Shown here: piece after piece, positions 24,100 through 43,768 of the stretch
How the letters are laid out: each line of letters begins with the position of its first letter
How positions within the stretch are numbered: the first letter of the stretch is position 1
Assembly: GCA_017302255.1 (NCBI GenBank)
Contig: JAFLDV010000022.1
Location: forward strand, 1 to 64,000
Direction of reading: 5' to 3'
DNA length: 64,000 bases
From: Gammaproteobacteria bacterium
GTDB lineage: Bacteria; Pseudomonadota; Gammaproteobacteria; Enterobacterales; Alteromonadaceae
Notes under the pieces: generated by a model
Databases searched by the model: none
The model's input: only the letters and a program-made list of their open reading frames with translations
Told to the model about the DNA's origin: nothing
Made by a program: the position numbers and the translations under genes

Positions 24100-25665
24100 T
24101 TAAAGGGTGACGCCATTTTTCCAAATCGCGATTTCTTTGTTATCACTGCGCTCGTTGCACGTCTTAGTGCCAGAGGCGACGGCAATCAAATAGCGGAAAA
24201 AATCAAATGCGAACTGCTCGGCTGACACGCCGGGTTGCAACATGGCGCCAGCATCAAAATCAATCCACTGGGGTTTATGCAAGGCCAGCCTTGAATTCGA
24301 AGATATTTTTACTGTCGGTACCGGAAAACCCAGCGGTGTGCCGCGTCCGGTGGTAAATAAAATTAGCGTTGCGCCAGCCGCGGTTAGCGCAGTTGACGAC
24401 ACCGCGTCATTGCCGGGACCTTGCAATAGCGTAAGACCTGGTACTTTGGCGACTTCACCGTAAGCAATCACCTGCTCGACAATGGCTGAACCGCCTTTTT
24501 GGATAGCACCTAGGGATTTTTCCTCAAGCGTGGTTAAACCGCCTGCTTTGTTACCCGGGCTTGGGTTTTCATAAACCGGTTGCTGATTGTCGATAAAATA
24601 CTGTTTAAATTCATTGACCAAATTGACCGTGTCTTGGAACACAGTTTCATTGCGTGCTCGTGCCATTAACACTTGCTCAGCGCCAAACATTTCCGGCGTT
24701 TCCGTCAGCACCACTTTGCCACCAGCTGCCGTGGCAAAGTCAGCCATCCGACCAACTAAAGCGTTCGCAGTTAAGCCGCTTAAACCATCGGAGCCGCCAC
24801 ATTTCATGCCCAGCACTAACTCAGAAATGGCACAAGCTTCGCGCTTATCGTTCGCCATCAATTGCAGCAATTCATCAACAGCTGCCAAACCTTCATCGAA
24901 CTCGTCACTGACTTGCTGAGCGTTAAAAGCGCGAACTCGAGAATGGTCGATGCCTTCACAAGCATCTAATAGCGCCGCTAATTGGTTGTTTTCACAACCA
25001 AGACCCAGAATTAACACCGCGCCAGCGTTGGGGTTTTGCGCAAGTCCCGCCAAAATGGTCCGGGTATGCTTTAAATCATCACCCAGCTGTGAACAGCCAA
25101 ATGGATGGGTATAAGCGAAGACACCATCGATATTGGCAAGGTTTTGTTGTTGCAAACGAGCATTGGCAGTTGCGGCAATACGCGTTGCAGCTCGATTGAC
25201 ACAGCCAACAGTATTTAAAATCCACAGCTCATTACGAGTACCGACTTTGCCGTTGGCCCGCCGATAACCCATAAAACTTTGCGGTAAATCCGCCGGAAAC
25301 GGCAAAGGCTGAGCAGCACAACCTTGGTATTGATATTCGGTTTTGCCGGATAACGCGGTTTGCACATTGTGCGAATGCAGATGATCGCCAGCCTTGACGG
25401 CTATGCTGGCAACACCAATGGCATAGCCGTATTTCACGACTTGCTCACCAATCGCTAATGGCGCTAACGCAATTTTATGACCGGCTGGAACCACAGAGTC
25501 CGTCACCACATGCTGCCAAGGTGCCGGTAATGTATAACCCATCGGTAATTCTTGTAATGCCACTACCACATTGTCGCGCGCATGGACCTGCCAGACTGCA
25601 ACTAAGGGCTTTGGCGACACCGGATCGGCAAGTGGCGCTGCACAACTGGGCTTGTTAAAGGTCAT
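24100..25665 (-). CDS. uxaA: Altronate dehydratase
   Basis: Dehydrates D-altronate to 2-keto-3-deoxygluconate. 521 residues with both halves of the family: an N-terminal SAF-type domain (about 30-115, ending AVKAGDHLHSHNVQTAL) and the large C-terminal dehydratase domain (FMGYRRANGKVGTRNELWIL, HPFGCSQLGDD, VLGMKCGGSDGLSGLTANA, FTTGRGTPLGFPVPTVKISS). The ATG has AGAGG seven bases upstream. It is the second gene of the GH28-led run, 42 bp after the polygalacturonase stop. Confidence 0.96.
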   Translation of the reverse strand: MTFNKPSCAAPLADPVSPKPLVAVWQVHARDNVVVALQELPMGYTLPAPWQHVVTDSVVPAGHKIALAPLAIGEQVVKYGYAIGVASIAVKAGDHLHSHNVQTALSGKTEYQYQGCAAQPLPFPADLPQSFMGYRRANGKVGTRNELWILNTVGCVNRAATRIAATANARLQQQNLANIDGVFAYTHPFGCSQLGDDLKHTRTILAGLAQNPNAGAVLILGLGCENNQLAALLDACEGIDHSRVRAFNAQQVSDEFDEGLAAVDELLQLMANDKREACAISELVLGMKCGGSDGLSGLTANALVGRMADFATAAGGKVVLTETPEMFGAEQVLMARARNETVFQDTVNLVNEFKQYFIDNQQPVYENPSPGNKAGGLTTLEEKSLGAIQKGGSAIVEQVIAYGEVAKVPGLTLLQGPGNDAVSSTALTAAGATLILFTTGRGTPLGFPVPTVKISSNSRLALHKPQWIDFDAGAMLQPGVSAEQFAFDFFRYLIAVASGTKTCNERSDNKEIAIWKNGVTL

Positions 25666-25707
25666 AATTTGCCTCTTAAATTAACTGGTTACTGGCAATA
25701 GCCTTAG

Positions 25708-27123
25708 CTAATTGCTTGGCTGCCAAGCGCTGCCATTTATCAGCACCTGCTTGCAGTCAAATTGCTCAACATGTTCAATCACGCCTAGGCTTTGGCTACG
25801 GATTTGCACTTGTTCAAGCGCCAAACCGACAATTGGTGCTCGAGCAAAACCCCGAAGTTCAAAGGCTCGCTCGGCCTTACTGACCCGGAAATTGCGCAGT
25901 TTAATGCCACGAACTTGTGGCAGAAATTGCCCGGCATCGCCTTCTTCGTAATAAAAATTAATCACCACGGCATCTTTCACTTGGCCGATGTCGATATCCC
26001 AAAGCGCGACATTTTCAATCAAGCCACCACGGACAGAATTGGTTTTAATACGCAGGCCTCGCTCAAGATCTGGGCTATTCATCACTAATCGCCGAGCATA
26101 AATATTGCGTGCACCACCAGAGATCTCACTGCCAATCACCACACCACCGTGCCCTGCCCGCATCACGCAGTCTTCGATAACCACGTTTTGAATTGGGGTT
26201 GCTAGGCGACGGCCATCGTTATTGCGACCGGATTTTAGGGCGATGCAATCGTCGCCTGTGTCAAATTGACAGCCACGAATAAGCACTCGCTCACAGGATT
26301 CCGGATCACAACCATCGGAATTCGGACCGTGACTAATGCAATTCACGCCTTCGATAACCACATCACGACATAACACCGGATTCATCAACCAAAACGGCGA
26401 GTTTTGTAAAGTCACACCGCTGATAAGCACACGGCTGCATTGATAAGTTTGAATTAATGACGGACGTAGACGGTTATCACGCAGCACACGCTCGCTGACC
26501 GGGGTGCCAGCTGCAACCCACTGTTGTAACTGGTCGCGCGAACGCTTTTGCGTATTTGCTGGATCGACCGGCCACGGAGTATGTTTCCACTCGCCTTTCC
26601 ACGGCCACCAATGTTGATTTGAACCACCGCCATCAATGATCCCTTCACCGGTGATGGCAATATTATCCGCGCCATAAGCGTAAATAAGTGGCTGGTAGCC
26701 CATCAATTCCATGCCTTCCCATCGCGTTTTCACCAAAGGCAAATAGCGTGTTGGATCTGGAATAAAAGCCAGCACGGCATTTTTCGCTAGGTGTAAGTTC
26801 ACGTTGGACTTGAGTGTCAAGGCACCCACTGCATAGCGCCCGGCCGGAATAACAACCTGACCACCACCGGAGGTATGACACAGGTCGATAAGACTTTGTA
26901 TCTCATGGGTAAAGTCCAGTAGCTCGGTACTGTTGCGCTCAGTTTTGAGGGCAAATTGACGCGCAGGAAAACTGGTCAGTTGTATACTGGCAATAATCGC
27001 ATCAGCTTGTTTCGCCAACTCATCATTTTGCGTGGATGGGTCCTGTTGGGCACAACGAGACAACACAGGCAAAGCAGCAAGTGCCAATGCTTGTTTTAAA
27101 TGCTGTCGTTTCGACCAATCCAT
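25708..27123 (-). CDS. Glycoside hydrolase family 28 polygalacturonase
   Basis: Hydrolyses alpha-1,4 bonds of (oligo)galacturonate. 471 residues with the right-handed beta-helix pattern. GH28 catalytic motifs: NSDGCDPESCE, FDTGDDCIALKSG, a G-H-G motif in RAGHGGVVIGSE, and RGLRIKTN. The N-terminus MDWSKRQHLKQALALAALPVLSRCAQQ is a charged plus hydrophobic leader ending in Cys, compatible with a lipoprotein, though Arg before the Cys is atypical of a lipobox. It heads the operon that breaks down galacturonate. The exo-acting type is suggested by periplasmic oligomer processing, but endo/exo mode cannot be read from sequence. Confidence 0.9.
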   Translation of the reverse strand: MDWSKRQHLKQALALAALPVLSRCAQQDPSTQNDELAKQADAIIASIQLTSFPARQFALKTERNSTELLDFTHEIQSLIDLCHTSGGGQVVIPAGRYAVGALTLKSNVNLHLAKNAVLAFIPDPTRYLPLVKTRWEGMELMGYQPLIYAYGADNIAITGEGIIDGGGSNQHWWPWKGEWKHTPWPVDPANTQKRSRDQLQQWVAAGTPVSERVLRDNRLRPSLIQTYQCSRVLISGVTLQNSPFWLMNPVLCRDVVIEGVNCISHGPNSDGCDPESCERVLIRGCQFDTGDDCIALKSGRNNDGRRLATPIQNVVIEDCVMRAGHGGVVIGSEISGGARNIYARRLVMNSPDLERGLRIKTNSVRGGLIENVALWDIDIGQVKDAVVINFYYEEGDAGQFLPQVRGIKLRNFRVSKAERAFELRGFARAPIVGLALEQVQIRSQSLGVIEHVEQFDCKQVLINGSAWQPSN

Positions 27124-27157: not shown

Positions 27158-27186
27158 AGCATATACACCGCTGCCACCGGTGGCAA
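27158..27186 (-). promoter_or_regulatory. Promoter of the GH28-uxaA-uxaC-...-gapN run
   Basis: Minus strand: -35 TTGCCA (27181-27186), 17-bp spacer, -10 TATGCT (27158-27163), about 35 bp before the GH28 ATG. The perfect palindrome TGCCACCGGTGGCA covers most of the -35 and part of the spacer, as expected for a repressor site. Confidence 0.6.
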
Positions 27187-27219
27187 TAGTGTGACAAAAA
27201 TTTCTGCCACCGCGAGACA
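27172..27219. promoter_or_regulatory. Paired operator in front of the GH28 run
   Basis: Site 1, TGCCACCGGTGGCA (27172-27185), is a perfect 14-bp palindrome with a central CG, the hallmark of LacI-family operators. Site 2, TGCCACCGCGAGACA (27205-27219), keeps the left half-site. The starts are 33 bp apart. The same pair with the same spacing occurs at 36963-37010. The likely binder is the LacI-type regulator at 30362-31384 (inference). Confidence 0.7.
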
Positions 27220-27332
27220 TTTTGATTCCATATCTGAAATTATTGGCGCTGCCGCCGATGTGGTATTGGCTATATGACAGGACAAATCGACCAAGTAAAT
27301 ATGAATAAATCTGGAGTTTTGCGCATTTATCC

Positions 27333-30269
27333 TTAACTACAAACTTGGTCTCGACCTTGATTTTTGGCTTGGTACAGCAAACTGTCTACTCTAGAGAGCA
27401 TTTTTTCGTAGTGGGCATAACCGCTATTTACCGCTACACCAAAGCTAGCAGTCACTTTTAAACCGGGCGCGACGTCAGAGAAATCGGTTTGAGCTAAGCG
27501 GGTGCGCAATCGTTCGGCAATTTCGACGCCTTCCGCAAGATTAACTTCAGGAAGCAACAATACGAACTCCTCGCCCCCCCAACGTGCAGCTAAGTCAATG
27601 TCTCGGACCGTGCTTGCGAAAATGTCGGCAATTCGTTTGAGCACCAAATCGCCGGCTAAATGTGACCATTGATCATTAATACGTTTAAAATGATCAATAT
27701 CCAGCATCACTATACACAATGAATGATGCAGTCGATTAGCCCGATTAAACTCTTGCGCTAACCGCTCATCAAAAGCACGCCGATTGGCAAGGCCAGTTAG
27801 ACCATCTTGCCTTGCCTGTAGTGCAAAAGCAGCGGATTGCTGTTGCAGCTGCACCGCTAGCAAAGTTTTCTCTTCAACAACGAGGTGCAATTGCTCGGTT
27901 TGTTGCTGCAATACAGCTGTTTGTGCGGCAACTTGAGCCGCCAATTCCAGTTCTTTGTGACGGATCCGAATAATTCGCAGGTGATACCAGCCATAAAACA
28001 TTGCGATGGCTAAGAAACCACTGGCAATCAAAAACTCTAAACGCTGCCAAAAAAATGGCTCGATATTAAACGCCACTGTCGCAGGCGCTGACCATTCACC
28101 ATCGGGATAAGCTGCGCTTACTGAGAATCGATAATGACCAGGCACCAAATTGGTGTATTCCGCGTGGTGCGAAGTACCTCGGTCTACCCAATCTTGGTCA
28201 AAACCCTCTAATTTAGTCCGGTACATGATCCGTGACGGCATCAAGTAGCTCAAACCTGCAAATTCAAAACCGACCCGACGAGTCCCTGCCGCTAGTTTTG
28301 TACCTTGTTGTACTTCACCGTTGGCCATTAGACTTTGCACAACCACGCTTGGAGTGGTCACACTAAAAGCAGCCAGTCGAACTGGATCGACGGCAACGGC
28401 ACCTTGCGCAGTTGCGAACCACAAACTGCCATCTTTACGAGTAGTCGCAGCCGGGGACGAACCGCCATTGCACTGCGCACTTTGCATACCGTCGGGCTCA
28501 CCGAATAAATCAAACCGGCTGAGCTTTTCCGCTTGGCCGAGCAACACCGCCTGCACATCACGTTGGTCAATTCGTAAAATCCCGCGATTACTACTTAGCC
28601 AAAAATACTGATGATCTTGGCGTAACATACTAAAGACTTTATCAAAAGGGAGACCTTGTGCACGACCGAGCAAACTCATACCGCCGGCATGATGAAAAAT
28701 GATGCCACGATCAGTTGCGATCCAAAAATCTGAGGAATTGGGGACTTTCGTAAAATCAAAAATGTATTGCGCATTATCCAAGTCGGCCAACGACTGGAAC
28801 TGAATTTTACCTTCGGCGTATTTTGCCAAGCCCTTACCAGTACCAATCCAGATGGATCCATCTGCATGCTGCATAAGTGCCGAGACGAAGGAACTTGGTA
28901 AACCATCGGCAGTGGTGAAATTGGTGAGAGTCTCCCCTTGTAACCTTGTCACCCCCCCGGAAGAGCCAAACCAAGCATCTTGCTCGTTCACTGGCAAAAT
29001 CGCGCGAACTTCGTTGGATCCTAGTCCGTCTTTACGTTGATATTGAGCAATCAGTTGCCCTTGTCGAAAACGCATGACGCCAACTGTATAGGTGCCAACC
29101 CACAAATCGCCATTAGGCGCTTCCGCTAGACTAAGTACCGACGGCACTGGCTTGCCATCAGCTAGGCGAATTTGCTGGATGTCTTGTCCTACTTGCCGAT
29201 CAAGACCATTACTAGAGCCTATCCAAAGACTGCCGTCACTGTGTTCAAGCAAAGTGCGAACATAGTTATCTGATAACCCTTGGTCTATGGTCAGCGTGGT
29301 GAACGGCGTATCGCGAAGACGCATCAGGCCGCCATTGGTCCCGACCCAAAGACTGCCTTCTTTATCTTCAAATAATGCTAGTACTCTATTGTTTGGTAGC
29401 CCTTGCTCAACGGTCAGTTGTTCGAGCCCTAAAGTACTGAGTCGGAACAAACCGCTGCTGATGGTTCCTATCCAAAGCTGGTCTTGCCGATCACGCAGTA
29501 AAGATGTCACCCCAAGCTGGGCTAATTTTGGATGCACAAGCACAAACCGTTCTTGTTCAAGTCGATACAAACCTTGTTCAGTACCGACTAACAGGCGCTG
29601 CGCATTATCATAATCCAATACGTAAATCGTTCCGGCAGGAAGGCCCTGCTCGGCGCCAACTTTCTCGGTTTTGCCGTTGCGATGATGAAACAAACCCAGA
29701 TCCGTGCCGAACCAAACACCTCCCAATGGATCTGGCTGCAATCGATAAACAACAGCACTGGCTTGCGCTGACAGTGGCTCGAATTGCCCGGAAGCAGCTT
29801 GGATAAGCACACCAGCACCTTCGGTTGCTAACCACAGTTTTCCAGAGCTATCGCGAAATAGATCATTTATAAGACTGCCGACATGCGGCTGCGGAGACCA
29901 AATACCGGCGTTAACACTGCTAATACCACCGCGAGCGCCACCAATGACTAATGAGCCATCGCTTTCACGCCAGAAGGTTCGAACACCAGAATCAGTAAAA
30001 CCTGTTTGCTCGCCGCGGGCAAAAACTTGGAAAGTACGACCATCAAAACGAGCCGCGCCTTCCCATGTGGCCAGCCATAAATAGCCATCACCACTTTGGG
30101 CTATATCATTGATAGTGTTATGAGGAAGGCCTTCACGCGTGGTAAAACTTTCGCGAAAATAATCACGAAGTGGTGTCGATTCTTGCGCAATTAGCTGCAA
30201 TGAGCAAAGTAGCAACCACCCAATGCTAAAACCCTGCAGTAGTCTAATGATCAAGCGTCCATTTCGCAT
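27333..30269 (-). CDS. Reg_prop/Y_Y_Y diguanylate cyclase
   Basis: Membrane sensor predicted to make c-di-GMP in response to an outside signal. About 978 residues: signal/anchor (RLIIRLLQGFSIGWLLLC), two seven-bladed-type propeller arrays (about 35-670, many DGSLWIGT repeats), a Y_Y_Y domain (YTNLVPGHYRFSVSA), one membrane helix (about 745-765), a coiled-coil linker rich in Gln, and GGDEF with LAARWGGEEFVLLLPE. An RDID I-site five residues before GGEEF implies product inhibition. The ATG at 30269 opens the signal peptide and has GGAG ten bases upstream; an ATG at 30296 has no ribosome site. It lies inside the pectin locus between the LacI gene and the GH28 run. Confidence 0.92.
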   Translation of the reverse strand: MRNGRLIIRLLQGFSIGWLLLCSLQLIAQESTPLRDYFRESFTTREGLPHNTINDIAQSGDGYLWLATWEGAARFDGRTFQVFARGEQTGFTDSGVRTFWRESDGSLVIGGARGGISSVNAGIWSPQPHVGSLINDLFRDSSGKLWLATEGAGVLIQAASGQFEPLSAQASAVVYRLQPDPLGGVWFGTDLGLFHHRNGKTEKVGAEQGLPAGTIYVLDYDNAQRLLVGTEQGLYRLEQERFVLVHPKLAQLGVTSLLRDRQDQLWIGTISSGLFRLSTLGLEQLTVEQGLPNNRVLALFEDKEGSLWVGTNGGLMRLRDTPFTTLTIDQGLSDNYVRTLLEHSDGSLWIGSSNGLDRQVGQDIQQIRLADGKPVPSVLSLAEAPNGDLWVGTYTVGVMRFRQGQLIAQYQRKDGLGSNEVRAILPVNEQDAWFGSSGGVTRLQGETLTNFTTADGLPSSFVSALMQHADGSIWIGTGKGLAKYAEGKIQFQSLADLDNAQYIFDFTKVPNSSDFWIATDRGIIFHHAGGMSLLGRAQGLPFDKVFSMLRQDHQYFWLSSNRGILRIDQRDVQAVLLGQAEKLSRFDLFGEPDGMQSAQCNGGSSPAATTRKDGSLWFATAQGAVAVDPVRLAAFSVTTPSVVVQSLMANGEVQQGTKLAAGTRRVGFEFAGLSYLMPSRIMYRTKLEGFDQDWVDRGTSHHAEYTNLVPGHYRFSVSAAYPDGEWSAPATVAFNIEPFFWQRLEFLIASGFLAIAMFYGWYHLRIIRIRHKELELAAQVAAQTAVLQQQTEQLHLVVEEKTLLAVQLQQQSAAFALQARQDGLTGLANRRAFDERLAQEFNRANRLHHSLCIVMLDIDHFKRINDQWSHLAGDLVLKRIADIFASTVRDIDLAARWGGEEFVLLLPEVNLAEGVEIAERLRTRLAQTDFSDVAPGLKVTASFGVAVNSGYAHYEKMLSRVDSLLYQAKNQGRDQVCS

Positions 30270-30361
30270 TAGTCCCAAACTCCGCCCATCCGCCATTACT
30301 GAAGAATTGCATAAACAATCAAAAGTTTAGCCTAGCACGAGATACCGAATTATGGGACTTT

Positions 30362-31384
30362 TTATGGCAAAGTCGCGGTTGATTCCCGAACTACGAGCGT
30401 CGGTGCAACTTTAGCTGCTACATGACCAGCCGCACTCTGATTATTTTCAATATCCATAATAATTTTTGTTGCAGCCAGTTGCGCCATTTGCCGCACAGGA
30501 CGACGAATAGTGGTTAAAGCGGGGATCACGCGCGATGCCAGCAAGTTATCGTCAAAACCGGCAACCGACAGTTGTTTCGGGATACTTATTCCCAAATCGT
30601 GCGCAGCTTTCAGCACTCCAGCGGCCATTTGGTCGTTATTGGCAAAAATGGCTGTCGGTAGTGTCGCTTGTGTTAACAACTGTCGCGCGCACTCAATGCC
30701 AGTTTCGTAACTGTTATTGCCTTCAATAATCCGTTCCGGCTGCAAAGTAATGCCGTAGGCAGACAATCCTAACTTGAATCCTTCCATCCGCTCAGTGGAC
30801 GACTTATAGCGTTGTGGTCCACTAATAAATGCGATATCCACATGACCAAGTTGCGCAAAATATCTAGCCATTTCCGCTGCAGCGGCGCGGTCATCTGAGA
30901 CAACTGAATGGTGATTATCGTCTAACAATACCGAAGTTAAACGCACATAAGGACGACCGGCATCTTTTAAGGCGCTGGCAAGATGATCAAGCTCAGAAAC
31001 TGGTGGCAACACAATCACGCCATCTAACTTCGAGCGATTGATGAAATTAAAGCAGTCTTGTACCAAGTTTTCGCTGCGATAGCGGCATGGATGTACAACC
31101 AGTTCATAACCAAGTTGTGAACATACTTCCAACACCCCACGCTGCACATCATCCAGATACAGCGCATCAGGGTTATCGTAAATTAAGCCAAGCAAATAAG
31201 AACGGCTCGACGCCAGACCACGCGCTTGCGGATTGGGGGAGTAATTTAAATCTGCGATAATTTTTTCAACCCGCGCCCGCGTACTGTCACCGACACTTAA
31301 AGAGCCGTTGATCACGCGCGATACGGTGCGTTTAGATACGCCCGCTAAACGCGCAACGTCATTGATGGTTGAAGATTTCAGCAT
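30362..31384 (-). CDS. LacI family transcriptional regulator
   Basis: 340 residues. The N-terminal helix-turn-helix and hinge STINDVARLAGVSKRTVSRV is canonical, followed by the periplasmic-binding-protein-like sensor domain (YLLGLIYDNPDALYL, SDDRAAAAEMARYF, AIFANNDQMAAGVLKAA, SVAGFDDN). It probably represses pectin/uronate genes and releases DNA on binding a pathway sugar acid. It ends the kduD-kduI-dctPQM-iclR run, 49 bp after the IclR gene. It is the best candidate for the CG-centred palindromes at 27172 and 36963, although no direct evidence exists. The ribosome site is weak (GGAG 15 nt away). Confidence 0.9.
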   Translation of the reverse strand: MLKSSTINDVARLAGVSKRTVSRVINGSLSVGDSTRARVEKIIADLNYSPNPQARGLASSRSYLLGLIYDNPDALYLDDVQRGVLEVCSQLGYELVVHPCRYRSENLVQDCFNFINRSKLDGVIVLPPVSELDHLASALKDAGRPYVRLTSVLLDDNHHSVVSDDRAAAAEMARYFAQLGHVDIAFISGPQRYKSSTERMEGFKLGLSAYGITLQPERIIEGNNSYETGIECARQLLTQATLPTAIFANNDQMAAGVLKAAHDLGISIPKQLSVAGFDDNLLASRVIPALTTIRRPVRQMAQLAATKIIMDIENNQSAAGHVAAKVAPTLVVRESTATLP

Positions 31385-31433
31385 AATATTAATAAAAACT
31401 CCGAAAGCTAGTGGTGCTAGCCATTGGCTCTAA

Positions 31434-32204
31434 TTACTGAGCATTTACAAGTAATTCAGGGCGATAAGTCGATAATGCAACCGTCAGTGCTGCTTGTTTT
31501 ACTAGGGTCGCAACCTGCGCTGTTGCCACCAGCGGAAACAGCTCAATTGGACCAGTAACCCCTATCGCCGCAACTACAACGCCGCGCTCATCGCGCACTG
31601 GCGCCGCTAAACAACGGATGCCTTCACGATACTCTTGTTCGTCTGTGGCATAACCACGGGCTAGAATTCGTTGTAATTCTACCCTGAGCTGCGCTGGATC
31701 GGTAATGCTTTGTGCTGTATGTGATTCAAAGTGCTCAGCTATTTGACTTAGTTTGTCCAAATGCAGATTCGCCAAAAACAGTTTACCAGCGGCAGAGCAG
31801 TTGAGTGCAGCACAAAAACCCGGCCGCGCCGCAGTGCTGTATGGATTGGGGTTATCAATCACTTCACCGATTAACGCACCATTGGCCCTTGGTAATAATA
31901 ATTGTGCGCTCAACCCTGTATCAATGGCCAATTGCTTTAGTTGCGCCACGGCATGTCGATGCAGCGGATGCTGATTCACTAAATCCAACCCCAACTGATA
32001 AAGCGCTGGGCCAGTCACGTATTTCCGGCCTTGTTTACTTAAGATTTGCTGATGACACAAGGTCTGCAAAATACGAAACGCAGTGGTTCGAGGAATGGCC
32101 AACTGCTGCTCGATTTCCGAAAGTCCTAAGCCGTGCATTGAACGCGCAACCAATTCAAACATACGACAGGCGTTTGCCAGATTGGGGATTAAGTAACTAG
32201 TCAT
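31434..32204 (-). CDS. IclR family regulator, probable KdgR
   Basis: 256 residues: an N-terminal winged helix (LANACRMFELVARSMHGLGL, IPRTTAFRILQTL) and a C-terminal effector domain (GLSAQLLLPRANGALIGEV, RPGFCAALNCSAAGKLFLA, EEYREGI-type segment RGYATDEQEYREGIRCLAAP). In enterobacteria KdgR of this family senses KDG and represses pectin genes, and its location right behind dctM fits that. GGGAG lies six bases before the ATG, nearly fused to the dctM stop. Binding sites matching the enterobacterial KdgR consensus were looked for and not clearly found. Confidence 0.82.
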   Translation of the reverse strand: MTSYLIPNLANACRMFELVARSMHGLGLSEIEQQLAIPRTTAFRILQTLCHQQILSKQGRKYVTGPALYQLGLDLVNQHPLHRHAVAQLKQLAIDTGLSAQLLLPRANGALIGEVIDNPNPYSTAARPGFCAALNCSAAGKLFLANLHLDKLSQIAEHFESHTAQSITDPAQLRVELQRILARGYATDEQEYREGIRCLAAPVRDERGVVVAAIGVTGPIELFPLVATAQVATLVKQAALTVALSTYRPELLVNAQ

Positions 32205-32213
32205 AGCAACTCC

Positions 32214-33509
32214 CTATAAACCAAACACTTGAGGTAGCCATTCGCTGATTGCTGGAATATATGTCACCATCATCAGCACCACAAACATCGCAAAATACAT
32301 TGGCAATAACGGTTTTAACAGCTGCTCAAGTCGCACTTTGGCAATTGCACAGGCGACAAACAGCACACTACCCACTGGCGGTGATACCAGACCTATCGAC
32401 AGATTCAATACCATCATGATGCCAAAGTGCAGCGGCGACATGCCACAAGCGACCGCTACCGGCAAAAATATTGGGGTGAAAATCAGCACAGCTGGCGTCA
32501 TATCCATAAAGGCGCCAACTACCAGCAGAATCAAATTGATAATCAGTAAAATCAACAATGGATTGTCGCTTAGCGCTAATAATCCAGCACTGATGCTCTG
32601 CGGAATGTTTTCGTAAGATAATATCCACGACATCGCCGCTGAGGTCGCGATTAACGCTAGCACTATGGCGGTTGTCTCGGTGGATTTCAGCAAAATGTTG
32701 GCAAGTTCACTCACCTTAACTTCGCGATAAACTAACACCGCCAAAATAAACGAATAAACTACAGCAATAGCACCGGCTTCCGTCGCGGTAAAATAGCCGC
32801 TGATAATGCCGCCAATCACCACAAAAATCATCAGTAAACTGGGAATTGCCGCTCCAACTTTACGCAGCACCAGCGACAATGGCAGTCTGGCTGAAACCGG
32901 ATACCCTTTCAATTTTGCGTAGCCTGCGCAGACAATCATCAGCGCCACACCCAGTAAAATGCCGGGCAAATACCCTGCTACAAACAGCGCGGCAATCGAC
33001 ACGCCGCCGCTGGCAATAGCGTAAACAATCATAATGTTTGATGGCGGGATCAACATGCCAGTGGTCGCGGCGGCAGCAGTAACCGCTGCGCTATACGCTG
33101 GCTCATAGCCCTGCTTTTTCATCTCTGGCAACATAAAACTACCGATTGCCGAAGTCGCAGCGACCGCCGAGCCGGAAATTGCCCCAAATAACATACAAGA
33201 CATCACGTTAACTAGCGCCAAGCCGCCAGGCAAAGACCCCACTAAAGCCATCGCACATTCAATGAGCCGTTTCGCAATGCCACCACGGCCCATCAACAAT
33301 CCTGACAGGACAAAAAACGGGATGGCAAGCAAGGCAAAGCTATTTAAACCGCCAGCCATGCGCTGCGCTAAAGTAGTCAATGCGGGTAGCAAATCCATAC
33401 TCAGCAACATAGTTGCCAACGTCGCCAGTCCAATACAAAAGGAAATCGGCACGTTAAGTAGCAACAAACCAAAAAATACCAAAAGCAGCACTAATGCAGA
33501 CATTTCCAT
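32214..33509 (-). CDS. dctM: TRAP transporter large permease subunit (DctM)
   Basis: Ion-coupled membrane subunit of a tripartite periplasmic transporter. 431 residues, about twelve hydrophobic segments, with family motifs RMAGGLNSFALLAIPFFVLSG, GSLPGGLALVNVMSCMLFGAISGSAVAATSAIG (in part), MLIPPSNIMIVYAIASG and ATEAGAIAVVYSF. The ATG abuts the dctQ stop. With DctP and DctQ it probably imports galacturonate, unsaturated galacturonides or 5-keto-4-deoxyuronate from the periplasm; the substrate is inferred from context. Confidence 0.95.
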   Translation of the reverse strand: MEMSALVLLLVFFGLLLLNVPISFCIGLATLATMLLSMDLLPALTTLAQRMAGGLNSFALLAIPFFVLSGLLMGRGGIAKRLIECAMALVGSLPGGLALVNVMSCMLFGAISGSAVAATSAIGSFMLPEMKKQGYEPAYSAAVTAAAATTGMLIPPSNIMIVYAIASGGVSIAALFVAGYLPGILLGVALMIVCAGYAKLKGYPVSARLPLSLVLRKVGAAIPSLLMIFVVIGGIISGYFTATEAGAIAVVYSFILAVLVYREVKVSELANILLKSTETTAIVLALIATSAAMSWILSYENIPQSISAGLLALSDNPLLILLIINLILLVVGAFMDMTPAVLIFTPIFLPVAVACGMSPLHFGIMMVLNLSIGLVSPPVGSVLFVACAIAKVRLEQLLKPLLPMYFAMFVVLMMVTYIPAISEWLPQVFGL

Positions 33510-34007
33510 TTAAAACTCTCCAAGCGAAGGCAGCGCTTGCTCTGACCACAAGCTGCACAGCTGACAAATCCCGTAAAACGCAATCAACAAACCACTGAGT
33601 GGTAATGCCAAATAAATCCAACCAATACAAATACCTAGGCCTGCATTCATTTGCTTAAGCTCAAACGCCAGCATCACTAATTGCCCACCGCCGAAAGTCA
33701 TCGCCGCAAGCGCGAACAACACAACTGCCAGCGTTAATATTGCGGCCACCCGTTTTTGCCAAAGTGCTGAGAATTTGCGGGTCACAATATCCAACCCCAA
33801 ATGCTGGCCGGTCCGATAAGCAAAGGCGCTGCCAAACATGCCAATCCATAGCAATAAACAACGAGAAATTTCTTCGGTAATAGAACTTGGCGTCGTTAAC
33901 ACAAATCTTGAAAGCACTTGGAAACACACCACCAACACGATGGCAGCCATCAATGCCATCAATAAGCGTTTTAGCAGGCCATCAACGCCGACAATTAACT
34001 TATTCAC
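33510..34007 (-). CDS. dctQ: TRAP transporter small permease subunit (DctQ)
   Basis: 165 residues with four membrane helices and the family motifs SRFVLTTPSSITEEISRCLL, WIGMFGSAFAYRTGQHLGLD and IGWIYLALPLSGLLIAFYG. It starts with GTG, overlapping the dctP stop by 8 nt, with GGAGG six bases upstream. It bridges DctP and DctM in the inner membrane. Confidence 0.93.
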   Translation of the reverse strand: MNKLIVGVDGLLKRLLMALMAAIVLVVCFQVLSRFVLTTPSSITEEISRCLLLWIGMFGSAFAYRTGQHLGLDIVTRKFSALWQKRVAAILTLAVVLFALAAMTFGGGQLVMLAFELKQMNAGLGICIGWIYLALPLSGLLIAFYGICQLCSLWSEQALPSLGEF

Positions 34008-34995
34008 TGGCCACCTCCGGCGTTAACTGTTGAATTTTTTGCAGCAATTCACCAACTTCGCTCCCCGCCAACTGCTGATGTAATGGCTGCACGGCATCAA
34101 TAAACGGCTGTTTATCGGGAACTATGACTTCAACCCCACGTGCTTTTACTTGTGCCAGCGCGTCTAACGTCGCCGCTTGCCATAGTTGTTTTTGGTAAAC
34201 TACCGAATCGCGCATCGCTGATCTGACCCAGCCTTGCTGGATTGGGGTAAGGCTTTGCCAAATCTGTTCACTCATTAAAATCACATCAGGCACTGCGGTG
34301 TGCTCATCAAGCACGTAATATTTGCTGACCTCGTAGTGACGCGATAAATAGAAACTTGGCGGATTATTCTCAGCACCATCAACCACCCCTTGTTGTAAGG
34401 CGGTGTATAGCTCACCCCAATCTATTGGTGTCGCTGCTCCGCCTAAGGTTTGCACCATAGTGACGGCGGTTTGACTGTTGGGGACGCGAAATTTCAAACC
34501 AGCGAGATCTGCCGGAGTTTTGATTTGCTTTGCCGTGGTATAAAAACTACGGCTACCGGCATCGTAATAACCAAGCCCCCGCAAGCGAACCTGAGTTAAA
34601 TCGCTCAGTAGCTGCTGTCCTATGTCGCTATCAAGCACTTGCCATAAATGCGCACTATCGCGAAAAACATAAGGCACACTAAAAATTTTCATCCGCGGCG
34701 AAAAGCCTTCAAGTGGACTTGCCGACACCTTGGTCATTGCCAAACTGCCGATCTGTAGCAGCTCGATCAATTCACGCTCAGAACCCAATTGCCCGCCGCT
34801 GTAAATTCGCAATTGCATGCTGCCGTTAGAATAAACCGCTAAACGTTCGGCCATAAATACCATGGCTTTATGCACCGCATGCTGTTGGTCTAGGGTATGT
34901 CCCATTCGCAGCACGACCACTTCGTCCTGCGGTGTGCAATGGCTAACCGACAACATCAGTAGTATTGCCGCAAAAAATTTAATGCTTTTTTTCAT
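34000..34995 (-). CDS. dctP: TRAP transporter substrate-binding protein (DctP)
   Basis: Periplasmic substrate-binding subunit, about 331 residues from the ATG at 34995, which opens a signal sequence KKSIKFFAAILLMLSVSHC. The Cys after it suggests a lipoprotein, although His at -1 is unusual. Family motifs: LRMGHTLDQQHAVHKAMVFMAE, SGGQLGSERELIELLQ, the binding-site Arg region GLKFRVPNSQTAVTMVQTLGG, and GVVDGAENNPPSFY. The longer in-frame start at 35046 would add 17 residues with no signal character. Substrate probably a hexuronate or unsaturated uronide. Confidence 0.93.
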   Translation of the reverse strand: MKKSIKFFAAILLMLSVSHCTPQDEVVVLRMGHTLDQQHAVHKAMVFMAERLAVYSNGSMQLRIYSGGQLGSERELIELLQIGSLAMTKVSASPLEGFSPRMKIFSVPYVFRDSAHLWQVLDSDIGQQLLSDLTQVRLRGLGYYDAGSRSFYTTAKQIKTPADLAGLKFRVPNSQTAVTMVQTLGGAATPIDWGELYTALQQGVVDGAENNPPSFYLSRHYEVSKYYVLDEHTAVPDVILMSEQIWQSLTPIQQGWVRSAMRDSVVYQKQLWQAATLDALAQVKARGVEVIVPDKQPFIDAVQPLHQQLAGSEVGELLQKIQQLTPEVASE

Positions 34996-35046
34996 GTTCT
35001 TATTGCACCTTTTTTGACAAGCGCTCGGTTGGCACCGCAAACACAA

Positions 35047-35892
35047 CTAACGCAATGCGCTTGCTGGAAACCTGTCCATGTCGTTGTAATCCAAATTTTC
35101 ACCAGCCATACCCCAAATAAAGGCGTAATTACTGGTGCCACATCCGCTATGAATGGACCAAGGCGGTGACACTACCGCTTGGTGATTGCCGACCCAGATG
35201 TGACGAGTTTGCGAAGGCTCGCCCATGAAATGGCAAACTTGCTGCTCAGCAGCTAAATCAAAATAAAAGTAGGCTTCCATGCGGCGATCATGCTGGTGCG
35301 CGGGCATGGTATTCCAGACACTGCCGGGCTTTAGCTCGGTCAAACCCATTTGCAATTGACAGGTTTCGACCACGCCTTGAATCATCAACTGGTAAATATC
35401 GCGATGATTGCTGGTCTCTAACGCCCCCATATGCAGCACGTTACACTGCGCCATGGTGATATGTGTATGTGGATATGCGCGGTGCGCTGGAGTTGAATTT
35501 AGGTAAAACTTCGCCGGCTGTTCTGGGTTAACACTATGAAACCAAACAGCTTTAGCACCGCGACCAACATACAATGCTTCTTTGTTCGCCAACGGATAAG
35601 TCACATCGTCGACAACAACGACGCCATCAGCTCCAACGTTGATAATGCCAAGCTCGCGCCGTTCTAAAAAATATTCGGCCTTTAACGCATCCACCGTTGG
35701 TAAAAATAATGGCTGAGTAGTCGGCACAGCACTACCGACAATCAGTCGCTCGTAATGCGTGTAGTTCAGTACTAAACTGTCAGCTTGCATCAGGTTATCC
35801 AGCAAAAAATGTTGCCGTAGCTGCTCAGTATCGTAGCCACGCACATCATCAGGATGTGTAGCGTAGCGGTTGGTGAATACCAATTCTGTCAT
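35047..35892 (-). CDS. kduI: 5-dehydro-4-deoxy-D-glucuronate isomerase (KduI)
   Basis: Isomerises 5-keto-4-deoxyuronate, formed spontaneously from unsaturated uronates, to 2,5-diketo-3-deoxygluconate. 281 residues, normal length. Zinc-ligand region: HTHITMAQCNVLHMG and MPAHQHDRRMEAYFYFDL; the C-terminus SPPWSIHSGCGTSNYAFIWG MAGEN is characteristic. Strong AGGGGAAG ribosome site. It follows kduD by 54 bp, the next enzyme on the path to KDG. Its presence means the cell handles lyase-type unsaturated products although no pectate lyase lies in this window. Confidence 0.97.
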   Translation of the reverse strand: MTELVFTNRYATHPDDVRGYDTEQLRQHFLLDNLMQADSLVLNYTHYERLIVGSAVPTTQPLFLPTVDALKAEYFLERRELGIINVGADGVVVVDDVTYPLANKEALYVGRGAKAVWFHSVNPEQPAKFYLNSTPAHRAYPHTHITMAQCNVLHMGALETSNHRDIYQLMIQGVVETCQLQMGLTELKPGSVWNTMPAHQHDRRMEAYFYFDLAAEQQVCHFMGEPSQTRHIWVGNHQAVVSPPWSIHSGCGTSNYAFIWGMAGENLDYNDMDRFPASALR

Positions 35893-35946
35893 TCTAACTT
35901 CCCCTAAAACTTATTGTTCAATAGACACTTGCTGTCACCACTTGCC

Positions 35947-36720
35947 TTAACGAGCAAGCCAGCCGCCATCAACTGCTAAAATATGGCCATTCACGTAGTT
36001 GCTAGCTGATGACGCGAGAAAAACCACAGCTCCCGCTAGATCTTCGGGTTCTCCCCAACGCCCAGCCGGTAACCGCGCTAAAATTTGGCCGTTGCGCACC
36101 GGGTCGGCCTGTAATGCAGCTGTGTTATCAGTTTTGAAGTAACCTGGCGCTATCGCATTGATATTTAATCCGTATTGCGCCCACTCATTGGCTAATGCTT
36201 TGGTGAGTCCGGCAATTGCATGTTTACTCGCAGTGTAAGCCGGCACCGTGATGCCCCCGCTAAATGACAACATCGATGCAATATTGATAATTTTGCCAAA
36301 GCCACGCTCTATCATTGATTTCGCCAGCAATTGCGAGAGCAAAAACGCCGAATCAACATTGACTGCAAAATTCTGCTGCCATTGTTCTTGAGGAAATTCC
36401 AGCGCAGGTGAACGAAAGATAGTGCCACCGCAATTGACCAAAATATCTATGGTCTTCGCGGCAGCTAAAGCCTTAGTTGCCAACTGACGCACCGCATCAG
36501 GATTTGATAAATCAGCGGCGAACGCTTCAGCTTGGCCGCCAGCATCCAAAATTTGTTTGACCGTTTCATCAGCACCACCAGCACTTGAACTGGCGCACAG
36601 CACCCGAGCACCCGCGGCGGACAATGCCACAGCGATCGCCTGGCCCAGACCTCGGCTAGCGCCAGTCACTAAAGCTGTTTTTCCACTGAGATTAAACAAT
36701 TGCGATATCGCTGCTTGCAT
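35947..36720 (-). CDS. kduD: 2-dehydro-3-deoxy-D-gluconate 5-dehydrogenase (KduD), SDR family
   Basis: NAD(P)-dependent reduction of 2,5-diketo-3-deoxygluconate to KDG. 257 residues: cofactor motif ALVTGASRGLGQAIA, NNAG-equivalent VNCGGTIFRSP, catalytic Ser in NIASMLSFSGG, YTASKHAIAGLTKALA with Tyr and Lys, and a C-terminal VNGHILAVDGGWLAR typical of KduD. The ATG at 36720 has GGAG eight bases before it; an ATG six codons earlier is less well placed. It is the first gene of the minus-strand run and is divergent from the TonB receptor. Confidence 0.93.
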   Translation of the reverse strand: MQAAISQLFNLSGKTALVTGASRGLGQAIAVALSAAGARVLCASSSAGGADETVKQILDAGGQAEAFAADLSNPDAVRQLATKALAAAKTIDILVNCGGTIFRSPALEFPQEQWQQNFAVNVDSAFLLSQLLAKSMIERGFGKIINIASMLSFSGGITVPAYTASKHAIAGLTKALANEWAQYGLNINAIAPGYFKTDNTAALQADPVRNGQILARLPAGRWGEPEDLAGAVVFLASSASNYVNGHILAVDGGWLAR

Positions 36721-36779
36721 GCACCACACTCCATTCATTCTTTGGCAACGTCAGAGTCTAGAGCACTGTCGCCACTTTC

Positions 36780-36793
36780 TTGGCATTTGCCAA
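36780..36793. promoter_or_regulatory. Dyad TTGGCA-TT-TGCCAA upstream of kduD
   Basis: A 14-bp palindrome with 6-bp arms, 60 bp before the kduD ATG and probably in its 5' leader or promoter. It differs from the CG-centred operators, so a second regulator, perhaps the IclR protein, could bind here. Chance cannot be excluded. Confidence 0.4.
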
Positions 36794-36962
36794 ACCGTTT
36801 GCTTCAAATATGGAACAAATTCATCATCACATTCAAAACAAAATTAGATTAAAATCCTTTAAAAACATACAGATGACATTTAAACTCGAAAATTATTTTG
36901 CCACGAAACTGGTTTTTTTTTGCTCTGGGTTTGACAGAGAGATTTCGTTGGTGTTAGCTTTT

Positions 36963-37010
36963 TGCCATCGGTGGCACAAAATTGCAAGCATTTTTTGCCA
37001 CCGGTAGACA
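36963..37010. promoter_or_regulatory. Paired operator between kduD and the TonB receptor
   Basis: Site 1, TGCCATCGGTGGCA (36963-36976), is a palindrome with one mismatch and a central CG. Site 2, TGCCACCGGTAGACA (36996-37010), starts 33 bp later and matches the second site at 27205 at 13 of 15 positions. A TTGCCA resembling a -35 box overlaps site 2 on the plus strand. The position can control both divergent units. Confidence 0.7.
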
Positions 37011-37137
37011 AAAATAAAAATACAGCGTTTGAAGTAACAGCGCCAAAATCAACAGGGAGATGCCTATCGCGTCTCCGATAATAAAACATCAGGGCATGTA
37101 CTCTGGTGATCACCGAAATCGTGACGAGGTAGGTAAG

Positions 37138-39921
37138 ATGAAAACAGAATTCCGGCGGCACCCGCTCGCCATCGCCATCGCAGTAGCTGCAGGCTTATGC
37201 GCAATGCCACAAGCAGTTGCCGAGCAACAAGCGCCGGCAGCTGAGGCTTCTGCAGCCAAAGAAAAGGACATCGAAGTCATTCAAGTCACAGGGAGTTTTC
37301 GCGATAGTCTGTCAAACGCCCTTAACGTCAAACGACAATCGGATAGCGCGTTAGATGCGATCATGGCCGAAGACATCGCTGACTTCCCGGATCTGAACCT
37401 TGCCGAATCACTGCAACGCATCCCTGGTGTCGCGATCAGTCGAGCCGCAGGTGAAGGTCGCCAAATTTCCGTTCGTGGCCTTGGCCCTGAGTTCACTCGG
37501 GTTCGCATTAATGGCATGGAAGCAATCTCAACAAGCGGCGGTACCGACCAGATCGGTGGCGCCAACCGCGGTCGCGGCTTCGATTTTAATACTTTCTCTT
37601 CCGATTTATTTAGCTCATTGACGGTGCGTAAAACTGCCAGCGCCGATGTTGAAGAAGGCTCTTTGGGCGCCACTGTCGATCTGCGTGCAGCACGTCCATT
37701 TGACTACGAAGGGTTTACCTTTGCTGCGTCAGGTCAGCTTGGCTATAACGATTTATCCGAGAAAAACGATCCTAAGGCTTCGTTTTTAGTTAGCGACAAA
37801 TTCCTCAATAACACGCTCGGCGCACTTTTTTCTGCGTCATTTTCTGAACGTAGTTTAAAAGATCAGGGTGCAAGTACTGTACGCTGGGCCAATGTCAACG
37901 ACTTTGGTCGCTACCGTGGTAATAGCACTGCAACTGAGTTAAACGAGATTAATGCCGCATTCCGTCCACGTTTGCCTCGTTACGATTCCTATACCCACGA
38001 TATGCAGCGTTTAGGCTTAAGTTCAGCCCTGCAATATCGACCAAATGCCAATACCTCGGTAGATTTGGACGTGTTGTATGCCAATACCGACGCCACCCGT
38101 AATGAAATTTTCATGCAAGGGATCTTAAACTCTGGCGCAAACCGGCCAACTACCGCCACAGCAGCGACCGGTAACACTGGCGCGATGAATGTACTCGATT
38201 ATTTTATCGACGATACCAACACTATGACTTACGGTAGTTTCGAAAATGCCACAATCCGCGCCGAAAACCGTTTCGACGAACTCGGCACCGATTTTACTCA
38301 GGTCAACTTAAGTGCCTCTCATCAATTAACCGACACTTTGAAAATTGAAGGGATGGTCGGCTCTGCCGTGTCGAAGTTTGATAACCCAGTGCAAACCACC
38401 CTAGTTATGGAAAAAACTGGCGCGGCTTTTAGCTACGACTATCGTGGTGCCTATCGGCAAAACCCACTACTCACCTTTGGTGACAGTGTCTATAACCCTG
38501 CAGGCTGGACCTCAAACTCAGTGCGTTTACGCCCTTTAGGCGCTGAAAACACTTTTGACAGTGCCGAACTGAACTTAAGTTGGGCTTTGAATGATGTCGT
38601 CACCATTAAATCAGGCTTGCATCAAAAGACCTTCAAATTCGAAACTTTTGAAGCGCGTCGGCAAACCGAAAACGGCGCTGGCATTGTCTACACCCCAGAT
38701 TTAATCTCGACTTATAACTCTGGCTTAGGCGCAAATCCAAACTGGTTAATTCCAAATTTTGCAGCAATTGATGCCAAATATGGCCTTTACAGCAACACCG
38801 GTGTATTTACCGTCAGTAGCGACTTCCGCCGAGCAGACAACTACTCAGCCGACGAAAGAACCCTCGGTGCTTATGTAATGGCGAGTTTTAACACTGATGT
38901 TGCCGACAAACCGTTCTGGGGTAACGCTGGGGTTCGCCAGTTGACGACCGACCAAAGCTCAACCGCTTGGGCAACTGTTGGCACGACACCAACCCAAATT
39001 ACTGCGGAGCACGACTACAACGAATTACTACCATCGCTCAATTTGAATTACGAGCCGTTCGAGGATGTGATTGTGCGCTTTGGTTATGCTGAAGTGATGG
39101 CACGCGCAGGTTTGGCTTCAATTCGCCCTGACGTGTCAGTATCAGTATCAGGGGGTAGCCGCTCAGTGTCTGGCGGTAACCCGCAACTTGAGCCGACCAA
39201 AGCCAAAACTTACGACTTAGGTCTTGAGTTCTACTTTAGCGACGAAGCCATGTTAGGTTTGGCGTTGTACCGTAAAGAAATCAACAGTCATGTGCAAAGC
39301 TTACGTGAAACCAAAGCCTTCACTGAAACTGGTTTACCGATCCAAGCCGCGATCGACGCTTGTACCGCAGGTCCTGGTTACAACGATAGCTGTAATGAAA
39401 ATGTCGACTGGTCAGTGACGACTCCATTAAATGGTCCTGGTGGTTCATTAAATGGTTATGAAATCAGTTATCAAATGCCGTTTACCTTTTTACCGGAATT
39501 CTGGAATCGCTTTGGTTTTACTGGAAACTTTACCCACGTAAAAGCGCAAATGGATTACATCAACGTCGCTGGCGTTGTGCAGGCCACCCGCGATTTACAA
39601 GGTCTATCGCGTAACACGCTTGCTGCGACTTTGTATTACGAGCACGAGAAATTAAATGCGCGGATAAGCTTAGCTAACCGTGATAAATACCTCACAACTG
39701 CCGTTGGCCGCGATAATAATGATATGGAAGGCACCAATGCCACCAGCAACATTGATGCGTCTGTAAGCTACAGTATTAATGAGCAGTGGAAAGTGAGCTT
39801 TGAAGGTCTGAACTTGACCAATGAAGTTGATGATCAATGGGTTGATAGCGCAGGGGATCGCCTAGCTTACTACCATGAAACCGGTCGTCAGTATTATCTT
39901 GGTGTGCAATACAAATACTAA
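37138..39921 (+). CDS. TonB-dependent outer-membrane receptor (pectin oligosaccharide type)
   Basis: 927-residue outer-membrane transporter. Signal peptide about 1-29 (HPLAIAIAVAAGLCAMPQAVA), a TonB-box-like IEVIQVTG, a plug domain (DFPDLNLAESLQRIPGVAIS, QISVRGLGPEFTRVRINGM, ADVEEGSLGATVDLRAARPF) and a beta-barrel ending YYLGVQYKY, with the expected terminal aromatic. The plug style is that of the large Xanthomonas/Caulobacter-type carbohydrate receptors. The ATG at 37138 has GAGG/AGG upstream. It leads the run encoding GH105, CE8 and CE12, which points to uptake of oligogalacturonides or rhamnogalacturonan fragments (inference). Confidence 0.93.
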   Translation: MKTEFRRHPLAIAIAVAAGLCAMPQAVAEQQAPAAEASAAKEKDIEVIQVTGSFRDSLSNALNVKRQSDSALDAIMAEDIADFPDLNLAESLQRIPGVAISRAAGEGRQISVRGLGPEFTRVRINGMEAISTSGGTDQIGGANRGRGFDFNTFSSDLFSSLTVRKTASADVEEGSLGATVDLRAARPFDYEGFTFAASGQLGYNDLSEKNDPKASFLVSDKFLNNTLGALFSASFSERSLKDQGASTVRWANVNDFGRYRGNSTATELNEINAAFRPRLPRYDSYTHDMQRLGLSSALQYRPNANTSVDLDVLYANTDATRNEIFMQGILNSGANRPTTATAATGNTGAMNVLDYFIDDTNTMTYGSFENATIRAENRFDELGTDFTQVNLSASHQLTDTLKIEGMVGSAVSKFDNPVQTTLVMEKTGAAFSYDYRGAYRQNPLLTFGDSVYNPAGWTSNSVRLRPLGAENTFDSAELNLSWALNDVVTIKSGLHQKTFKFETFEARRQTENGAGIVYTPDLISTYNSGLGANPNWLIPNFAAIDAKYGLYSNTGVFTVSSDFRRADNYSADERTLGAYVMASFNTDVADKPFWGNAGVRQLTTDQSSTAWATVGTTPTQITAEHDYNELLPSLNLNYEPFEDVIVRFGYAEVMARAGLASIRPDVSVSVSGGSRSVSGGNPQLEPTKAKTYDLGLEFYFSDEAMLGLALYRKEINSHVQSLRETKAFTETGLPIQAAIDACTAGPGYNDSCNENVDWSVTTPLNGPGGSLNGYEISYQMPFTFLPEFWNRFGFTGNFTHVKAQMDYINVAGVVQATRDLQGLSRNTLAATLYYEHEKLNARISLANRDKYLTTAVGRDNNDMEGTNATSNIDASVSYSINEQWKVSFEGLNLTNEVDDQWVDSAGDRLAYYHETGRQYYLGVQYKY

Positions 39922-39934
39922 CTCGTCCTGTACC

Positions 39935-39957
39935 AGCCCAGTCACTTTGACTGGGCT
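39935..39957 (+). terminator. Perfect hairpin between receptor and GH105 genes (attenuator-like)
   Basis: AGCCCAGTCA and TGACTGGGCT with a 3-nt loop, 11 bp after the receptor stop, followed by GCCTGGTTTT. The T-run is short, so partial termination or 3'-end protection of the receptor mRNA is more likely than a full stop. Confidence 0.5.
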
Positions 39958-40027
39958 GCCTGGTTTTAGCCGCAGGCAACCCCGCTCGCGGCTCTTTTTC
40001 TGGTCATTCCAAGCTTTGGGGGAATTT

Positions 40028-43754: not shown

Positions 43755-43768
43755 CCGATGGAGTTCTC

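Follow-up and report, generated by a model that had tools for sequence, protein, structure and literature searches.

Conserved operator pairs with a fixed 33-bp spacing probably link a pectin-use gene cluster to its own LacI-family repressor

The pectin-use gene cluster analysed here carries two pairs of palindromic sites, which are kept in many related water bacteria, and a single sugar-sensing LacI-family repressor very probably controls the cluster through them. Judging from the sequence, we regard it as highly likely that both pairs are twin operators of the LacI-family repressor encoded in the cluster itself, and that they control its pectin genes.

Results

The initial annotation had described near-identical palindromes with a central CG at 27172 and 36963, each followed at a distance of exactly 33 bp by a weaker partner; these positions were verified (Table 1). 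It had also failed to find the pair elsewhere in the window, i.e. the whole stretch of 64,000 nucleotides that was analysed; exact matches to the strong site were indeed found at these two places only, and the genome-wide motif scan that had been asked for, covering 4.03 Mb, again confined exact strong sites to them. When up to two mismatches were allowed, the window contained 6 strand-matches at 3 places versus 0.95 expected, a count reached by none of 100 shuffles. One-mismatch matches occurred at two more places, 56392 in the window and C5:30454, each within an open reading frame; both were rejected as additional operators because of their location in coding sequence.

That the pairs arose by chance or belong to a dispersed repeat is hardly credible. 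Such an origin would agree with there being two copies only in this genome, and the loci compared share descent, but besides the shuffling result, backward-read control motifs gave zero matches in all 26 genomes searched, of 394 genomes sampled from the order, five had the exact pair, and the copies were located at the same genes throughout the relatives compared.

Table 1. Coordinates of the genes, predicted promoters and palindromic sites of the pectin-use cluster
Feature	Position	Strand	Description
Unit 1	17697-27123	-	GH28, altronate/galactarate dehydratase-like, uronate isomerase, reductase, eda, KDG kinase-like, aldehyde dehydrogenase
Predicted GH28 promoter	27158-27186	-	-35 TTGCCA (27186-27181), 17 nt, -10 TATGCT (27163-27158)
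Putative strong LacI-type operator, GH28 promoter	27172-27185		TGCCACCGGTGGCA; perfect 14-bp palindrome, central CG
Putative weak partner operator, GH28	27205-27219		TGCCACCGCGAGACA; 33 bp from strong site
Related palindrome upstream of GH28 pair, candidate IclR operator	27226-27239	+	TTCCATATCTGAAA
LacI-family repressor	30362-31384	-	340 aa; recognition helix KRTVSR; predicted binder
IclR-family regulator	31434-32204	-	256 aa
Unit 2	30362-36738	-	kduD, kduI, TRAP transporter, iclR, lacI
Second conserved palindrome, candidate IclR operator	36800-36817	-	TGTTCCATATTTGAAGCA on minus strand
Predicted TonB-receptor promoter	36931-36960	+	TTGACA (36931-36936), 18 nt, TAGCTT (36955-36960), TG before TAGCTT
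Putative strong LacI-type operator, between kduD and TonB receptor	36963-36976		TGCCATCGGTGGCA; even palindrome, central CG
Putative weak partner operator, kduD/TonB	36996-37010		TGCCACCGGTAGACA; 33 bp from strong site; perfect near half, with TAGACA as far half
Unit 3	37060-44587	+	TonB-dependent receptor, DUF4861+GH88 protein, unknown protein, GDSL esterase
TonB-dependent receptor ORF	from 37060	+	likely start ATG 37138

Comparison of orthologous intergenic regions, another check proposed at the outset, revealed that within the close group (Rheinheimera, Arsukibacterium, Alishewanella and Alkalimonas; counts refer to readable regions) the pairs are conserved and their spacing is invariant. 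The 33-bp pair was present in 35/35 kduD/TonB-receptor regions and in 33/33 GH28 promoters; these loci share descent, so that the counts do not represent independent events. The strong site between kduD and the TonB-receptor gene was invariant in all 35 regions, and that of GH28 was the same in all 33 promoters save for a single variable position, occupied by C or T. The kduD/TonB partner, TGCCACCG plus TAGACA, was likewise invariant (35/35); the GH28 partner varied in sequence, with its near half and its distance persisting, and was near-perfect in several species. A search permitting any gap from 0 to 30 found two pairs in each of 20 related genomes, every one with a gap of 19.

At 10.5 bp per turn, 33 bp corresponds to 3.14 turns, about 51 degrees past exact phase; thus, the proposal of three helical turns and a common DNA face is roughly, although not exactly, right. 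The view that the sequence between the two sites of a pair is not conserved applies when the two promoters are compared, as their spacers differ, but not to the kduD/TonB spacer itself, in which GCAAG (36984-36988) is invariant in 35/35 loci.

Among 45 more distant loci, a partner was found at 31-35 bp in 18 (at 31 bp in 14 of these) and at 40 bp in one, 25 had single sites only, and one (L165) had no site. Single sites are common among the more distant LacI orthologs, so that pairing is a feature of clades and not of the regulator as such, and the loci with one site or none indicate that twin sites are dispensable for regulation as such.

Both strong sites are even palindromes with a central CG, which is the rule for LacI-family operators given in PMC4052901. 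The protein encoded at 30362-31384 contains the LacI helix-turn-helix, the TVSR recognition helix and the hinge leucine, and the operator has a G at NT-6, in accordance with PMC2978694, where these protein features and the NT-6 rule are given. The K-R recognition residues occur in 80/80 LacI orthologs, and in one of the five LacI-family proteins with a readable helix in this genome (which has seven such proteins in total).

The LacI protein of the cluster had been named as the best candidate binder, and the distribution of the sites, which track lacI and not iclR, argues for this choice. Both pairs were found in 20/20 genomes with a LacI ortholog of at least 82% identity, and no pairs were present in 4/4 congeners without the ortholog. 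Within the family, the exact strong site was present in 25 of 26 genomes with the LacI gene versus 17 of 121 without it (Fisher p 5e-16, relatedness being ignored). In addition to those 17 genomes carrying the exact site without this LacI, G494 has the LacI gene and lacks the exact strong site, G121 has its sole exact site on a different contig from lacI, and G015, with a LacI ortholog at 63%, has single sites only. Binding of the pairs by the IclR protein of the cluster, whose gene adjoins lacI in the same run, is very improbable: three genomes with no iclR genome-wide at E<=1e-20 (G052, G401 and G410) keep both pairs, an iclR match was found in L123 and L142 only of the 45 distant loci, all but one of which have the strong site, and a different palindrome accompanies iclR.

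This second palindrome was found at 150-161 bp in 32/32 iclR-bearing kduD regions, its distance drifting within this range while the 33-bp spacing of the pair stayed fixed. Two of the three kduD regions without iclR, which maybe represent one lineage, had nothing under 3 mismatches, and the remaining one (L088) had a 1-mismatch match at 174 bp; three distant iclR loci gave loose matches in two cases and none in one. The palindrome at 36800-36817 may be an IclR operator. A similar palindrome, located upstream of the GH28 pair, was present in 11/11 loci with iclR in the Rheinheimera sensu stricto group and absent from the sister group.

The predicted -35 box of GH28 overlaps the strong operator, and this promoter is kept as TTGCYA-16 nt-TATTAT in most of the 33 promoters. 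Both boxes of the TonB-receptor promoter are invariant in 35/35, and the transcript start is predicted within the strong operator. Both predictions rest on conservation, because a simple scanner run missed the TonB-receptor promoter and gave a GH28 hit that was by itself not above chance (2 found versus 0.6 expected). No kduD promoter was located. Of the three units originally assumed to be controlled, the case is firm only for those behind the GH28 and TonB-receptor promoters; control of kduD is plausible but less certain, because the pair sits 225 bp upstream of the ORF start and the conserved palindrome that goes with iclR intervenes. A reading with one site per divergent promoter was rejected, as the neighbours of the GH28 pair run in the same direction.

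Discussion

The position and conservation of the strong palindromes suggest that a LacI dimer bound there would block transcription, covering the predicted -35 box and spacer at GH28 and occupying the predicted transcript start at the TonB receptor. A second dimer on the weak site, on approximately the same side of the helix, would steady the first one by dimer-dimer contact, which we infer from the invariant spacing. Release of LacI by a pectin breakdown product would then switch on uptake and catabolism together, and IclR would provide a separate input, probably via its own palindrome near kduD. The protein does not show the C-terminal helix beyond the core that goes with lac-type looping by a tetramer; its alignment to LacI stops at residue 335 of 340 in the query and 328 of 360 in the chain.

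A rather unlikely alternative is that the strong palindromes are LacI operators and the partner is no working dimer site, being either a remnant or a sequence retained for some other role, for example as a leader or promoter element. Such an explanation has difficulty with the identical 33-bp distance at two promoters that are unrelated, with the GH28 partner, whose near half and distance persist despite its variation, and with the partners at 31-34 bp in other clades, although it would account for the poor far half of the kduD/TonB partner (at least 3 mismatches in either register in 35/35), for the 25 of 45 distant loci that manage without a partner, and for the spacer carrying its own invariant GCAAG. 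The kduD/TonB partner is one-sided in 35/35: the half turned towards the strong operator is perfect, and the poor far half ends one base out of register. A tentative and somewhat doubtful idea is that the weakness of the partner serves a purpose, forming a polarised, tuned switch in which the second dimer would depend on the first.

For tandem operators of LacI-family regulators, PMC4052901 describes distances that peak at 13, 22 and 32 bp, and interprets the 22- and 32-bp peaks as cooperative dimers. Since tandem sites peaking at 32 bp are already published there, the present pairs add a case; as in that class, the two sites of a pair share an intergenic region and keep to a favoured distance. 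The pairs differ from it in that the spacing is 33 bp at both promoters of a single locus and that the kduD/TonB partner is weak and one-sided. According to the same paper, RafR of Enterobacteriales and ScrR of Burkholderiales have double operators at 21-22 bp, with double sites only in their regulogs. These are likewise paired sites of a LacI-family regulator at a local sugar operon, whereas here the sites are 33 bp apart and single sites occur in relatives. LacI-family regulation of uronate genes is shared with UxaR, UxuR and KdgR of Bacteroides (PMC4052901) and UxuR2 of Algoriphagus (PMC5507952), the latter also with a TRAP transporter; these regulators belong to another phylum and are likened by description.

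The regulator and operator of the present locus are not described in the sections of PMC4052901 considered here. Among the matches listed for open-licence PMC papers with the motif letters, the full 14-mer did not occur and no title concerned this system, and in the open-licence PMC literature on pectin or galacturonate and LacI, the related genera and paired operators, the operator appeared in no title or abstract opening.

Our comparisons would assign an operator to the LacI-family pectin-use regulator of Rheinheimera, Alishewanella, Alteromonas, Pseudoalteromonas and their relatives, and give a candidate operator for the IclR protein encoded beside lacI. If the tuned switch is real, the polarised pair together with the IclR palindrome would form a two-regulator gate on pectin uptake. 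Because some clades have one site and others two, spaced by 31, 32 or 33 bp, they offer a natural series for testing the influence of the spacing and of a weak partner on cooperative repression.

Results

The initial annotation had placed two near-identical palindromes, each with a degenerate partner, upstream of the gene runs of the pectin locus, and all four sites were present where it had put them (see table). Several of the gene names in the three runs are based on family matches under NCBI's cut-offs. Six strand-matches with at most two mismatches to the strong site, at three places, were found in the window against 0.95 expected, a number reached in none of 100 shuffles. The genome-wide motif scan which the annotation had proposed restricted exact strong sites to 27172 and 36963 in the whole genome (4.03 Mb, 99.89% complete); single-mismatch matches occur at two further places, window 56392 and C5:30454, both within ORFs. 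When the gap was allowed to range over 15-25, the exact pair was found in 5 of 394 genomes of the order, namely this genome, one congener, two members of another genus in the same family, and one member of another family.

Features of the pectin locus (window coordinates; promoters and operators are predicted)
Feature	Position	Strand	Description
Run 1	17697-27123	-	GH28, altronate/galactarate dehydratase-like, uronate isomerase, fructuronate/tagaturonate reductase-like, eda, KDG kinase-like, aldehyde dehydrogenase
Run 2	30362-36738	-	kduD, kduI, TRAP transporter, iclR, lacI
Run 3	37060-44587	+	TonB-dependent receptor, DUF4861+GH88 protein, unknown protein, GDSL esterase
lacI	30362-31384	-	predicted binder of the pairs
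iclR	31434-32204	-	regulator encoded beside LacI
Propeller/GGDEF protein	27333-30296		987 aa, two-component-propeller/Y_Y_Y/GGDEF, between lacI and GH28
GH28 strong site	27172-27185		14-bp palindrome
GH28 partner	27205-27219		weak site, gap 19
kduD/TonB strong site	36963-36976		14-bp palindrome
kduD/TonB partner	36996-37010		weak site, gap 19
GCAAG	36984-36988		in kduD/TonB pair spacer
ATCAACAGGGAG	37047-37059		TonB-receptor gene leader
Second palindrome	36800-36817		TTCCATATNTGAA-type, candidate IclR operator
Related palindrome	27226-27239		GH28-side copy
Predicted GH28 promoter			TTGCCA-17-TATGCT in window; -35 inside strong operator
Predicted TonB-receptor promoter			TTGACA, 18 nt, TG-extended TAGCTT; conserved; start inside strong operator

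A scan of named genomes gave 211 LacI relatives, and the best 80 of these 211 loci were compared. The close group consists of the window and 35 loci (L087-L121: Rheinheimera, Arsukibacterium, Alishewanella, Alkalimonas and MAGs); 35 kduD/TonB-receptor regions and 33 GH28 promoters were readable in it, the remainder being cut by contig ends. Comparison of these intergenic regions, also suggested by the annotation, revealed that the pair is kept: a partner, defined by at least 7 of 8 half-site letters, stands at exactly 33 bp in 35/35 kduD/TonB regions and 33/33 GH28 promoters, counts which, given the shared descent of the loci, show persistence and not independent events. When gaps of 0-30 were allowed in whole genomes, two pairs were found in each of 20 genomes, every gap being 19. 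At kduD/TonB the strong site, the weak-site TGCCACCG plus TAGACA, TTGACAG and TAGCTT were invariant in all 35 regions, and the flanks vary. The assertion that the sequence between paired sites is not conserved fails for GCAAG at kduD/TonB, which was invariant in 35/35 loci. The leader sequence ATCAACAGGGAG is largely kept across the 35 loci. Neither the R. texasensis group nor the Arsukibacterium/Alishewanella loci have the propeller/GGDEF protein between lacI and GH28.

Among the 45 other loci, 18 had one or more pairs spaced 31-35 bp (31 bp in 14 of these loci), further strong sites there being single; one had a pair at 40 bp, 25 had single sites only, and L165, a lacI locus without pectin genes, had neither pair nor strong site. 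In a genome of another family (G253), two perfect palindromes with a 32-bp spacing lie close to TonB-receptor-like genes (L083, 9001-9046); the LacI relative of this genome (56% identity) is encoded on a different contig. No pair was found in the whole genome of G015 (LacI 63%) with gaps of 0-30.

The two halves of the weak site differ at kduD/TonB, where the near half is perfect and the far half has at least three mismatches in either register (35/35). Of the 33 GH28 partners, 19 have a better near half than far half, 11 have equal halves and 3 have a worse near half, so this polarity is no rule there.

LacI had been named as the best candidate binder, and its distribution agrees with this. 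Among 22 same-genus genomes, 18 encode a LacI ortholog at 87-100% identity, and four (G330, G400, G403, G409) have paralogs near 40% only; with G254 and G339 (82-83%), the orthologs amount to 20 genomes, and both pairs occur in exactly these 20. In a survey of 147 family genomes, with LacI scored as present at E<=1e-105, the exact strong site was found in 25/26 genomes with LacI versus 17/121 without it (Fisher p 5e-16, relatedness ignored), the exception being G494, which has LacI and lacks the exact site. In G121 the sole exact site and lacI are on separate contigs. The motif read backward, used as a control, matched in three genomes of this survey. The alternative that the neighbouring IclR recognizes the pairs is contradicted by three genomes (G052, G401, G410) from which iclR is missing genome-wide (E<=1e-20) and which retain both pairs; moreover, in the 45 distant loci an iclR match was found in L123 and L142 only, and the strong site in 44. 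In G410 the LacI match (L038, 1501-2514) was reported with one in-frame TAA.

The recognition helix of LacI reads KRTVSR in 79 of the best 80 of 211 loci and KRTISR in one. Seven LacI-family genes are present in this genome and, of five readable helices, the cluster LacI alone has K-R. PMC2978694 ties TVSR proteins to G at NT-6, which the strong operator has, and specificity to the two preceding residues (K-R here).

A second palindrome (TTYCA-N4-TGRAA, mismatches counted) was picked post hoc, after inspection of the loci. On the kduD side, a TTGTTCCATATNTGAACAA-like palindrome with 0-2 mismatches occurs in 32/32 iclR-bearing regions at a distance from the strong site which drifts between 150 and 161 bp, unlike the constant 33 bp. 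In the three regions without iclR, the best matches had four (L089) and three (L090) mismatches, and one mismatch at 174 bp (L088). Upstream of the GH28 pair, a related palindrome (0-1 mismatch) was found in 11/11 iclR-bearing Rheinheimera sensu stricto loci and in 0/2 such loci without iclR; it is absent from the 20 iclR-bearing loci of the sister group, except for a one-mismatch match elsewhere (L109, -53). Exact GTTCCATATNTGRA is unique in the genome (36803-36816), and at two mismatches the motif showed no genome-wide enrichment (108 vs 141 backward). A matrix built from 17 loci gave the window copy a score of 23.5 of 28.1 and the copy on the GH28 side 9.9. Scores as high as 18.9 occurred within the 19 kb of loci lacking iclR, so loci with and without iclR are not separated by the matrix alone. 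Distant iclR loci gave loose matches (L142, 12.0; L080, 8.6 near kduD) or none (L123). As a lead, the palindrome near both pairs, which follows iclR in the Rheinheimera group, may be considered a candidate IclR operator.

Discussion

The position of the predicted GH28 promoter, whose form in most relatives is TTGCYA-16-TATTAT, suggests that a dimer on the strong operator would block RNA polymerase. The predicted TonB-receptor promoter received no call from the promoter scanner. With 225 bp separating the strong site from the start of the kduD ORF, control of this gene by LacI is no more than a possibility.

The initial annotation had read the spacing as about three helical turns, with two dimers on one DNA face. 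The number of turns is nearly right (3.14 at 10.5 bp per turn), and the second site would lie about 51 degrees past exact phase, an offset which DNA bending could absorb. The cluster repressor aligns over its length with PurR and CcpA; its alignment to LacI ends at LacI residue 328 of 360. The tetramer helix of LacI is C-terminal, past the end of the aligned part. Thus, there is no room in the cluster repressor for this helix, and contact between two dimers likely underlies the 33-bp rule.

We found no account of this operator in the open-licence PMC literature consulted. According to PMC4052901, tandem sites precede 1118 LacI-regulated operons; the distances between them peak at 13, 22 and 32 bp, and the two longer ones are interpreted there as cooperative dimers. 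The 33-bp pairs belong to this class; distinctive of the present system are a spacing held constant between two promoters in a single locus and, at kduD/TonB, a one-sided weak site.
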